Shown here: one piece after another, positions 2,220 to 6,001 of the stretch
Position numbering within the stretch: position 1 is the first letter of the stretch
How the letters are laid out: each line of letters begins with the position of its first letter
Assembly: GCA_026989655.1 (NCBI GenBank)
Contig: JALSIX010000001.1
Span: forward strand, 1-36,023
DNA from: Caldilineaceae bacterium
GTDB taxonomy: Bacteria; Chloroflexota; Anaerolineae; Caldilineales; Caldilineaceae
Length of the DNA: 36,023 nt
Direction of reading: 5' to 3'
Program-made: the position numbers and the translations under genes
The notes under the pieces: generated by a model
Told to the model about the DNA's origin: nothing
What the model saw: only the letters and a program-made list of their open reading frames with translations
Database searches by the model: none

Positions 2220-3620
2220 ATGTCCACCCCGTCCCATGCACCGGTCCATCCCCACAGACTTCTCCAGGACCTGCAGGCCATCGTCGGGCCAGAGCATGCC
2301 ACCACGGCAGAGGCCCATCGCTCCCAACACAGCCGGGACCAGTCCTCCCATCCCCCTCACCTGCCGGACGCGGTGGTCTGGCCCGAGTCCACCGAGCAGG
2401 TGAGCGCCATCCTCCGCTACGCCAACGAACGCCGGATCCCGGTGGTGGGCTGGGGCGCGGGGACCAGCATCGAGGGCAACCCCATCCCCGTGGCCGGAGG
2501 CATCGTGGTGGATTTCCGCCGCATGGACCGCATCCTGGCCATCCACCCGGAGGACTTCCAGGTGACGGTCCAGCCGGGCATCCTCTACAAGGACATGAAC
2601 CGGGTCCTGGCCCGCCATGGCCTCTTCTTCCCGCCCGACCCCGGGGCCAACGCCTCCATCGGCGGCATGATCGCGAACAACGCGGCCGGCATCCGCACGG
2701 TGAAGTACGGGGCCACCCGGGACAACGTCCTGCGCCTGGAAGTGGTGTTGGCCGATGGCCAGGTGATCCGCACCGGCTCCCGGGCGGTGAAGCAGTCCGC
2801 GGGCTACGACCTGACCCACCTGGTGGTGGGCTCCGAGGGGACCCTGGGGCTGGTGACCGAGGCCACCCTGAAGCTCGCCCCCCTGCCCGAACACTTCAGC
2901 GCGGTCACCGCAGCCTTCCCCACCCTGGAGGCCGCGTCCCAGGCCGTCTTCGAGATCATCGGCAGCAACCTGGGGCCCGCGGCCCTGGAGCTCCTGGATG
3001 CCCAGAGCGTGGCCATCCTGAACCAGGAGGCCCACTTCGACCTGGCCGTGGCGCCCAACCTCTTCATGGAGTTCAACGGCCCCTCCCCGGCCGCGGTCCA
3101 GGAGGTACTGGTCATGGCCCAGGCCATCTGCCAGGAGCTGGGCTGCATGGATTACCGAGAGGGCCTGGGCCGGGAGGCCCGGAACCGGCTCTGGCGGGCC
3201 CGACACCACCTCTTCGAGGCCCTGGTCCGCCACTACGCGGGGATGTCCTACCTGCTCACCGACGTGGCCGTGCCCATTGCCCACTACCCCCGGCTGGTGG
3301 CCCAGGCCCAGGAGATGGCCCGGGAACTGGGCCTGGAGGTGAGCTACATCGGCCACGCAGGGGACGGCAACCTGCACACCGCGGTCTTCTTTCCCCCCGA
3401 CGACCGGGAGACCCGACGCCGGGTGGAACAGTTCGACGACCGCCTGGTCCACCTCGCGCTGGCGCTGGACGGCACCTGCACCGGGGAACACGGCGTGGGC
3501 ATGGGCAAGGCCCAGTACCTGCCCCTGGAGTACGGCCCGGCCACGGTGGAGGTCATGCGCCAGATCAAGCGCCTGCTGGACCCCAACGGCATCCTCAATC
3601 CCGGCAAGGTCCTGCCCTGA
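2220..3620 (+). CDS. FAD-binding 2-hydroxyacid dehydrogenase (GlcD / D-lactate dehydrogenase family)
   Basis: The protein has 466 residues, the usual length for GlcD, LDHD or Dld2-type flavoproteins. The N-terminal PCMH-type FAD domain (about 35-215) has the phosphate-binding loop GWGAGTSIEG and the conserved GGMIANNAAG and KQSAGYDLTHL stretches. The C-terminal domain (about 215-463) has the metal/substrate His motif HAGDGNLH near residue 379 and GEHGVG at 422-427. It should oxidise a D-2-hydroxy acid such as D-lactate or glycolate to the 2-oxo acid. No GlcE or GlcF partner is adjacent, which favours the single-subunit D-lactate dehydrogenase type. GGAGGT at 2207-2212 sets the start. The upstream gene is 132 bases away, so the two may be co-transcribed, but no strong promoter or terminator was found between them. 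Confidence 0.9.
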   Translation: MSTPSHAPVHPHRLLQDLQAIVGPEHATTAEAHRSQHSRDQSSHPPHLPDAVVWPESTEQVSAILRYANERRIPVVGWGAGTSIEGNPIPVAGGIVVDFRRMDRILAIHPEDFQVTVQPGILYKDMNRVLARHGLFFPPDPGANASIGGMIANNAAGIRTVKYGATRDNVLRLEVVLADGQVIRTGSRAVKQSAGYDLTHLVVGSEGTLGLVTEATLKLAPLPEHFSAVTAAFPTLEAASQAVFEIIGSNLGPAALELLDAQSVAILNQEAHFDLAVAPNLFMEFNGPSPAAVQEVLVMAQAICQELGCMDYREGLGREARNRLWRARHHLFEALVRHYAGMSYLLTDVAVPIAHYPRLVAQAQEMARELGLEVSYIGHAGDGNLHTAVFFPPDDRETRRRVEQFDDRLVHLALALDGTCTGEHGVGMGKAQYLPLEYGPATVEVMRQIKRLLDPNGILNPGKVLP

Positions 3621-3887
3621 TCCCGCCGGAGCACGGCGCGCGAAGCCTGCCCCAGGCCCGGCCGCCGGACGGCCCCCGGCGGGCCCCACCCCAGGCCCTC
3701 CACGCCGGAAAGCGGGCATCGAGCCGGTTATGATGGGTACAAACGGCGCCAAGGCAGCAAAATCCATCGGGCCGTGGACACGTTGGGCGACCTGTTGGCC
3801 TTGAAAGTCATCCCTGGCCCAAGAGATCCAGGATGCCACTCCATGGCCCATGTCTTGTAAAAGTGCATAACACGCTCTAGGAGGTGG
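3621..3887 (+). pseudogene. Remnant of an IS5-type transposase (about 3690-3857)
   Basis: One frame, read from about 3699 to the TAA at 3858-3860, gives ..[18 protein letters not shown].. followed by [19 protein letters not shown]. From memory this matches the middle of IS5-family DDE transposases, around the second catalytic Asp (AVDTLG). It has no start codon, no N-terminal half and no C-terminal catalytic Glu region. After about ALKVIPG the similarity fades and the frame stops. About 50 residues of a dead insertion sequence therefore remain just upstream of the repeat array. No inverted ends were recognised. The bases from 3621 to about 3690 hold nothing else identifiable. Confidence 0.62.
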
Positions 3888-4735
3888 GTAGTACGCACTT
3901 CAGTGCGCACGTGGACGTGGCATGTGTATGTTCCCTGGACCGCTGAAGCGCTCACTACGAACCCTAGAGGATTGTAGTACGCACTTCAGTGCGCACGTGG
4001 ACGTGGCATGCGTGTGTCTCCCGGAGCGCTGAAGCGCTCACTACGAGCCCTATCACTACGGGCCCTAGAAGATTGTAGTACGCACTTCAGTGCGCACGTG
4101 GACGTGGCATGCGTGTGTCCCCTGGAGCGCTGAAGCGCTCACTACGAGCCCTATCACTACGAGCCCTAGAAGATTGTAGTACGCACTTCAGTGCGTACGG
4201 GGACGTGGCATGCGTGTGTCTCCTGGAGCGCTGAAGCGCTCACTACGAGCCCTAGAGGATTGTAGTACGCACTTCAGTGCGTACGTGGACGTGGCATGCG
4301 TGTGTCTCCTGGAGCGCTGAAGCGCTCACTACGAACCCTAGAGGATTGTAGTACGCACTTCAATGCGCACGTGGACGTGGCATGCGTGTGTCTCCCGGAG
4401 CGCTGAAGCGCTCACTACGAACCCTAGAGGATTGTAGTACGCACTTCAATGCGCACGTGGACGTGGCATGCGTGTGTCTCCCGGAGCGCTGAAGCGCCCA
4501 CTACGAACCCTAGAGGATTGTAGTACGCACTTCAGTGCGTACGTGGACGTGGCATGCGTGTGTCTCCCGGAGCGCTGAAGCGCTCACTACGAGCCCTAGA
4601 GGATTGTAGTACGCACTTCAGTGCGTACGTGGACGTGGCATGCGTGTGTCTCCCGGAGCGCTGAAGCGCTCACTACGAGCCCTATCACTACGGGCCCTAG
4701 AAGATTGTAGTACACACTTCAGTGCGCACGTGGAC
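3888..4735. repeat. Tandem array of paired GTAG palindromes (REP/BIME-like), 9 units plus a partial tenth
   Basis: Units start at 3888, 3974, 4075, 4176, 4262, 4348, 4434, 4520, 4606 and 4707, giving periods of 86 (six times) and 101 (three times). Each unit has hairpin A, GTAG then TACGCACTTCAGTGCGTAC (9-bp stem at best, TC loop). A spacer containing TGGACGTGGCATGCGTGTG follows, then hairpin B, GAGCGCTGAAGCGCTC, ending in CACTAC. The reverse complement of B reads GTAGTGAGCGCTTCAGCG, so A and B are inverted copies of one GTAG-headed palindrome that agree at 15 of 20 positions. The 101-bp units contain an extra 15-bp copy around CACTACGGGCCCTA. An inverted pair of GTAG-headed palindromes is the layout of REP sequences and BIMEs mobilised by RAYT (Y1 HUH) transposases. 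No RAYT gene is in the window. No convincing coding sequence runs through it. Confidence 0.92.
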
Positions 4736-4954: not shown

Positions 4955-6001
4955 ATGGCCTACCCATTTCCCACCGAGATCCACCGCGTCGTGGACCCCG
5001 AGGGCAACCTCGTGGGCGATCCCCCGGAGCTCTCCCCGGAACAGCACCGCAAACTCTACTACTGGATGGTCTTCGGCCGCATGTGGTCGGAGCGCATGGT
5101 GGCCCTCCAGCGCCAGGGCCGGATGGGCACCTTCGCCCCCCATGTGGGCCAGGAGGCCCAGGCCGGCATCGCCTCGCCCCTCCGCCAGGACGACTGGCTC
5201 CTGGGCACCTATCGGGAGTGCATCGCCTACTTCGTCAAGGGCCTCTCGCCCCTGGCCCCCATGGCCACCCACCGGGGCTACTTCAGCCGGGGCTACACCC
5301 GGGAGCTCGGCCTGGTTCCCCTGCAGATCGTCATCGGCAACCAGATGCTCCACGCGGTGGGCGTGGCCATGGCCATGCAGTACGAGGGCACAGACCGGGT
5401 GGCCGTGGGCGTCTGCGGCGACGGTGCGACCAGCCAGGGAGACTTCCACGAGGCCCTGAACTTCGCCGCGGTCTTCCAGGCCCCCTTCATCGCGGTGGTG
5501 CAGAACAACCAGTACGCCATCTCGGTTCCCCGGCAGCGCCAGGCCGCGGTGGAATACCTGGCCTACCGAGGCCCCGCGTTCGGCATCCCCGGCTACATCG
5601 TGGACGGCAACGACGTCCTGGCCGTCCACAAGGTGGTCCAGGAGTGTGTGGAGCGGGCCCGGGCCGGGGAGGGCCCCAGCCTGGTGGAGCTGCTCACCTA
5701 CCGGATGGGTGCCCACACCACCGCAGACGACCCCACCAAGTACCGCTCCGACGAGGAGGTGGCCCACTGGCAGGCCCGAGACCCCATCAAGCGCTACCGG
5801 ATCTTCCTGCTCCGCCAGGAGATCCTCTCCAACGAGGAGGATGAGGCCCTCCACGAACAGGCCACCGCGGACCTCCAGCGCTGCGTGGAGGAGTTCGAGG
5901 CCATGCCCCCGCCCCGCCCCGAGGAGATCTTCGAACACGTCTTCGAGACCCCACCGCCCAATCTCCTGCGCCAACGGGACGAGATCCTGGGCACCCCCTA
6001 G
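4955..6001 (+). CDS. pdhA: Pyruvate (2-oxoacid) dehydrogenase E1 component, alpha subunit
   Basis: This 348-residue protein is the ThDP-binding alpha subunit of a heterotetrameric E1, which decarboxylates the 2-oxo acid and passes the acyl group to E2 lipoyl-lysine. The ThDP/Mg motif is clear: GDGATSQGDFHEALNF, then VQNNQYAIS about 25 residues later (the GDG..NN pattern). The C-terminal YRMGAHTTADDPTKYR is the conserved phosphorylation-loop region of this family. The RBS AAAGGAG precedes the ATG at 4955. The beta subunit begins 12 bases after the stop. Substrate is uncertain: the sequence resembles PdhA of Gram-positive-type complexes, but branched-chain oxoacid dehydrogenase alpha subunits are close relatives. 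Confidence 0.92.
   Translation: MAYPFPTEIHRVVDPEGNLVGDPPELSPEQHRKLYYWMVFGRMWSERMVALQRQGRMGTFAPHVGQEAQAGIASPLRQDDWLLGTYRECIAYFVKGLSPLAPMATHRGYFSRGYTRELGLVPLQIVIGNQMLHAVGVAMAMQYEGTDRVAVGVCGDGATSQGDFHEALNFAAVFQAPFIAVVQNNQYAISVPRQRQAAVEYLAYRGPAFGIPGYIVDGNDVLAVHKVVQECVERARAGEGPSLVELLTYRMGAHTTADDPTKYRSDEEVAHWQARDPIKRYRIFLLRQEILSNEEDEALHEQATADLQRCVEEFEAMPPPRPEEIFEHVFETPPPNLLRQRDEILGTP

Follow-up and report, generated by a model that had tools for sequence, protein, structure and literature searches.

The window, a stretch of 36,023 nucleotides from a Caldilineaceae bacterium, carries between positions 3888 and 4735 a tandem array of inverted palindromes headed by GTAG. We consider it highly probable (roughly 0.9) that this array is a cluster of REP sequences arranged as REPINs (a BIME), that it belongs to a REPtron of the subclass 2.8 type with its cognate RAYT on contig C94 of the same draft genome, and that it has been amplified locally in tandem. 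This reading is based on the structure of the array, covariation in the stems, the distribution of copies, a cognate RAYT adjacent to a sister array, spacers specific to each locus and the similarity of neighbouring units. REPs are short parasitic DNA repeats that form hairpins, and the family type is already known. What is added here is the lineage, the size of the arrays and the locus-specific spacers.

A preliminary description of the window reported GTAG hairpins in units of 86 or 101 bp, and a repeat search as well as a hairpin-by-hairpin inventory bear this out. TRF finds an array at 3888-4684 with a period of 86, 8.9 copies, 87% matches and a score of 1042; a 101-bp variant of the unit is present. 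Between 3888 and 4735 there are 19 hairpins in strict alternation (+-+-...+), ten on the plus and nine on the minus strand. The plus hairpins (GTAGTACGCACTTCAGTGCGYAC) start at 3888, 3974, 4075, 4176, 4262, 4348, 4434, 4520, 4606 and 4707. Each of the nine minus hairpins, which read GTAGTGAGCGCTTCAGCGCTCC on the minus strand, lies between two plus hairpins. As reported earlier, the two hairpins of a unit are inverted copies of each other; of the 20 positions compared, 15 agree and five differ. They form head-to-head pairs of about 71 bp, with the REPs in opposite orientation and GTAG at the outer ends, which is the arrangement that characterizes BIMEs and REPINs. Nine full head-to-head pairs and one half unit make up the array, and the claim of a large tandem expansion holds. 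In the 101-bp units (starts 3974, 4075 and 4606) the extra 15 bp are a repeat of the CACTAC foot region. The features are:

2220..3620, plus strand: upstream flanking gene, GlcD-like FAD-linked oxidase
3888..4735, no strand: whole REP/BIME array of 19 alternating GTAG hairpins, nine REPINs and one half unit
3888..3973, no strand: unit 1, 86 bp, the most divergent unit of the window array (plus hairpin 3888-3910, 27-bp spacer, minus hairpin 3937-3958, 15-bp linker)
3974..4074, no strand: unit 2, 101 bp, the extra 15 bp repeating the CACTAC foot
4075..4175, no strand: unit 3, 101 bp
4176..4261, no strand: unit 4, 86 bp
4262..4347, no strand: unit 5, 86 bp
4348..4433, no strand: unit 6, 86 bp, plus hairpin with the private variant CAATGCG, common to unit 7 only
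4434..4519, no strand: unit 7, 86 bp
4520..4605, no strand: unit 8, 86 bp
4606..4706, no strand: unit 9, 101 bp
4707..4735, plus strand: terminal half unit with one plus hairpin (4707-4729); the array stops inside the spacer at about 4735
4955..6001, plus strand: downstream flanking gene, pyruvate dehydrogenase E1 alpha subunit (pdhA)

The window array is extragenic, since it is flanked by the GlcD-like oxidase gene. Just upstream of it, at 3726-3827, 34 residues resemble by eye the remnant of an IS5-type transposase; this stretch has no Pfam match.

The palindromes of the window have a GTAG foot, a stem of 6-7 bp and a CTTCAG apex. Across a set of 50 distinct hairpins, collected from the source genome and from the RAYT loci of relatives, the GTAG foot and a T lead into six core stem pairs closed by a TTCA or TTTA loop. 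GTAG is the foot in most copies; GTCG is found in a minority on contig C112 and in most plus hairpins of contig C82. The compensatory stem pair that had been noticed earlier (A-T versus G-C) lies at hairpin positions 10/17, and a second one, missed at the time, lies at positions 7/20 (C-G versus A-T). Across the 50 hairpins, whose MAFFT alignment is gapless, double-sided changes occur in six of the seven stem pairs. The covariation score is 0.707, compared to a mean of 0.237 for shuffled hairpins; none of 500 shuffles scores as high, and slid versions score 0.03-0.13. Similarly, 88.6% of the cells are pairing, compared to 62.6% after shuffling. The seed used to collect the hairpins constrains nothing but the foot and the CTTYAG apex. 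Hence, pairing outside the foot and apex was not selected for. The stem is backed by compensatory change, as is typical of REPs of the GTAG superfamily. A point against the REP reading is that one unit, folded as a single strand, gains only mildly over its shuffles (z -1.6).

Copies were inventoried by pattern searches over the 4.09-Mb draft genome. The pattern GTAGTNNGCRCTTCAGYGC has 76 matches with at most two mismatches, compared to one for the reversed control. Six of these belong to the related C82 subfamily, and a few are isolated. The window-type palindrome subfamily comprises about 66 copies in about eight loci, mainly arrays. There are arrays on C1 (the window), C94, C108, C112, C13 and C55/C22, the last of which is probably one array split by the assembly, and near-single copies on C8 and C31. 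Further genome copies, which the preliminary description suggested looking for, are found both as arrays and as single copies. They are concentrated in few large arrays and are not spread by the hundred over the genome; three relatives have 122-232 copies at many loci. Where a gene lies on each side, the arrays are all between genes (the window, C94, C108 and C112 were examined). The neighbours are the glcD-like gene and pdhA in the window, csm1 and the RAYT gene on C94, a permease and a PfkB kinase on C108, and an MFS transporter and a response regulator on C112.

An array between two codirectional genes could also be an RNA-level element: a set of transcript stabilisers or terminators between the glcD-like gene and pdhA that was amplified for that role. 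REPs can serve secondary roles at the transcript level (PMC3733652). As RNA, the whole array folds better than its shuffles (z -6.5), although any array of inverted repeats would be expected to do so. However, the array has no Rfam match and the same hairpins adjoin unrelated genes. We think an RNA origin improbable, and an RNA role would be secondary to the REP identity instead of an alternative origin. In annotation, arrays of this kind do not call for a gene-regulatory role by default.

The REP reading gains from a RAYT gene beside the same palindrome, which had been proposed as a check. Such a gene is found on C94, directly downstream of a sister array. An array of 12 hairpins comes directly before it, and the start codon lies 13 nt past the last hairpin. 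The gene has at least 190 codons and runs off the contig about 8-10 residues short; the other flank is lost at the contig end. The protein passes the NCBIfam model REP_Tyr_transpos (99.2 bits, cut-off 80) and falls narrowly below the cut-off of the Pfam model Y1_Tnp (PF01797, 20.2 bits, cut-off 23). Because it is below the Y1_Tnp cut-off it was absent from the first family search; it was located when the C6 RAYT served as a tblastn query on the array loci.

By sequence, the best PDB relative of the C94 protein is 4ER8 (E 1e-8), the E. coli TnpAREP in complex with a REP hairpin. The predicted fold (mean pLDDT 81.7) also matches 4ER8 in Foldseek (E 3.7e-9). In the alignment, Y145 of the C94 protein lies on Y115 of the E. 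coli enzyme, which is the catalytic residue (PMC8266576). N84, H85, Y86, H87, W125, Y145, H147 and N149 are kept in eight aligned homologues, the C94 protein included. It has the HuH motif (H85-Y86-H87), the tyrosine (Y145) and a downstream asparagine (N149), the motifs of a REPtron RAYT. Subclass 2.8 is marked by NHYH, W[YH], YIHYNP and a proline-rich N-terminus (PMC6006769). The C94 protein bears each of these marks, and its motifs would place it as a TnpAREP of the subclass 2.8 type.

Contamination is an unlikely source of C94: its REPIN spacer is common to C108, whose flanks match the G+C of the window (both 0.70; C94 0.66). The RAYT locus and its array (L034, 2048-4684) come directly after the csm1/cas10 gene of a type III CRISPR system. 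Plasmid records hold no matching RAYT.

The family might instead be mobilised by another Y1 enzyme of this genome, either the IS200-like TnpA of contig C147 or the RAYT encoded on C6. These were the first suspects as cognate enzymes: the C147 TnpA also has GTAG-tagged palindromes alongside, and C6 encodes a full RAYT. Both were set aside because their flanking palindromes differ. The one at the C147 TnpA (GTAGCCGGGGGAATCATCCCCCGGC) is found at C147 only, and the C6 RAYT is flanked by copies of TGAGGAGTGCGCATGCTCCCATGCGCA. Only the C94 RAYT has the window-type hairpin directly beside it, and relatives of this RAYT show the same arrangement. We give these two enzymes very little chance of being the cognate ones.

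The C147 TnpA (L043, 4519-6126) has the motifs DHVH, WQ and YVQQQKEHH, is close to subclass 1.2 and follows a run of 15 alternating NTAG palindromes (GTAGCCGGGGGAATCATCCCCCGGC and ATAGCCCGGCGACTTCATCGCCGGGC). Subclass 1.2 was reported without REPs. A homologue in genome G032 (L151, 4357-4830), 62-63% identical, has such palindromes alongside too. On C6 (L032, 1219-2125), the palindrome TGAGGAGTGCGCATGCTCCCATGCGCA lies on both sides of the separate RAYT gene and has a GGAG-type foot. C52 (L134, 2713-3294) encodes another RAYT-like protein with a spoiled HuH motif (SRVH) and 52 of the 80 bits required by NCBIfam; it is probably a decayed RAYT.

The link between the hairpin and the RAYT extends to relatives, among which there was no other member of the source genus. 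Of 16 RAYT loci whose protein is at least 46% identical to the C94 RAYT, 13 have GTAG...CTTYAG hairpins in the fetched flanks, mostly on both sides. At RAYT loci with at most 42% identity, hairpins of the same design occur at 0 of 24 (Fisher p 5e-8, for a hairpin pattern designed after part of these loci had been seen). Ten loci fetched later give the same direction in a small sample (4/6 versus 0/4, p 0.08). Three of the 16 close RAYTs are without palindromes, and one of these three genes is broken. In other families of the class, related RAYT genes are flanked by palindromes of this design. Genome-wide counts in G125, G148 and G135, whose RAYTs are 54-59% identical, are 140, 122 and 232, with 0 for the reversed control.

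The hairpin of most of the closest RAYT relatives is GTAGT(RN)GCRCTTYAG. The RAYT group at 46-53% identity has GTAGTAACGACTTYAG or similar, which is also present in one 58% relative, G219. The stem sequence, as far as these loci indicate, tends to change along with the RAYT, and we regard this as a clear instance of RAYT and REP changing in step from genus to genus. The arm pair of the source genome, GTAGTGCGCACTTYAG and GTAGTGAGCGCTTCAG, is found again beside the RAYT genes of G125 and G148. Hence, the pairing of these two types is old, as is that of Y and Z in E. coli BIMEs.

Genome-wide, REP presence and the presence of a close RAYT are only loosely correlated across the class: 13 of 18 REP-bearing genomes are without a close RAYT match at E up to 1e-20. 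RAYT and REP pair up locally, but from one draft genome to the next the match is not strictly one-to-one; the draft state of the assemblies and loss of RAYTs may be the reason. The exact hairpin pattern is also found in Nostoc, Fischerella, Calothrix and other cyanobacteria, and in Chloroflexi. This is consistent with subclass 2.8, which is known from cyanobacterial proteins.

A large regular tandem array at one site, in a genome with few such loci, is also what a host protein-binding satellite would look like. In that case the array would be domesticated, for example for nucleoid or gyrase binding, and its likeness to REPs incidental. However, this palindrome occurs at many unrelated sites between genes and beside a RAYT gene, the hairpins are conserved while the spacers differ between loci, and the hairpin sequence changes together with the RAYT clade. 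A satellite is therefore a very improbable explanation. The preliminary reading of a BIME-like, RAYT-linked REP element is supported by the approximately 66 genome copies and by the RAYT adjoining the sister array; both other copies and a RAYT gene exist, and the reading stands. It needs two qualifications: the copies are concentrated in few arrays, and transposition is something we infer.

How does the system compare to known ones? Surveyed members of subclass 2.8 number eight, all cyanobacterial, with relatives in other phyla mentioned (PMC6006769, 2018). The system described here resembles a subclass 2.8 REPtron in its motifs, its length of about 199 aa, its proline-rich N-terminus and its canonical GT[AG]G-tagged flanking palindromes. 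In contrast to the survey, there are many members in a class of Chloroflexota, and the palindromes form large tandem arrays. Thus a barely studied RAYT subclass, formerly eight cyanobacterial proteins, is now found in many Chloroflexota with cognate hairpins. GTAG repeats are known in Chloroflexi, and those of Thermomicrobium roseum (GTAG-23) are clustered at few loci (PMC3733652, 2013). The likeness to GTAG-23, compared by description only, lies in GTAG-tagged palindromes in large blocks at few loci. The window-type hairpin has no excess on the T. roseum megaplasmid, with 25 loose matches compared to 173 for the reversed control.

As in E. coli BIMEs (Y and Z REPs, TnpAREP), hairpins of two types, distinct but related, alternate with their orientations opposed, and there is a single RAYT locus with its own REPs. 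In contrast, E. coli REPs have a bulged stem, the E. coli RAYT belongs to subclass 2.2 of group 2, and E. coli BIMEs are found at many loci, whereas the arrays here are few and long. The REPINs of Pseudomonas fluorescens reportedly are pairs of REPs in inverted orientation that carry GTAG at either outer end and are linked to a RAYT. The inverted REP pair, the outer GTAG and the RAYT link are shared with our system. In P. fluorescens, however, REPINs are mostly dispersed doublets, and here they are tandem arrays with local spacers.

These spacers bear on how the arrays grew. Within pairs they are about 94% identical inside the window array and 88-90% inside C94 and C112. Between most arrays they are at the shuffled or chance level, with the exceptions of C94-C108 (87%) and C55-C22 (87%). 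The spacers are array-specific, and the hairpins are shared between loci. Hence, each array probably multiplied its own founder. The spacer match between C94 and C108 looks like a pair that moved together with its spacer. In the window array, adjacent units resemble each other more closely than units further apart do (69/5000 permutations), and the same is true of C82 (62/5000, with a fifteenth C82 unit in the test that falls past the array end). The variant CAATGCG, with units 6 and 7 of the window array as its sole sharers, is an example. Such neighbour similarity fits repeated local duplication.

In the mechanism that we propose, the RAYT would recognise the GTAG foot and the hairpin on single-stranded DNA, presumably on the lagging strand, and would cut and rejoin strands through its catalytic tyrosine. 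Hairpin pairs could thereby have reached a small number of intergenic sites. A single founder pair, together with the spacer particular to it, would then have multiplied in tandem at each of them, through ordinary slippage, unequal recombination or errors in strand transfer.

Alternatively, the subclass 2.8 RAYT itself may drive tandem amplification besides dispersal, for instance if a circular or looped single-stranded REPIN, spacer included, is copied several times at one target. We consider this unlikely. If true, it would account for the few loci, the long arrays and the locus-specific spacers. Either way, the arrays are a convenient place to study the tandem growth of BIMEs, a step for which the literature examined offered no explanation.

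Three further loci carry repeats of their own. C82 (L133, 3407-4350) has a second array subfamily of 28 hairpins with a 60-bp period, in which GTAGTAACGACTTCAG (often with a GTCG foot) and GTAGTCGTCGCTTCAG are the hairpin types. The array reaches nearly to the contig end, beside a citrate synthase gene, and no RAYT was seen at the C82 locus; elsewhere this stem type accompanies the RAYT group of 46-53% identity. On C8 (L039, 4982-6141) a stretch of 1137 bp is repeated in tandem with one GTAG hairpin per copy, and C31 (L040) has ends in common with this repeat stretch.
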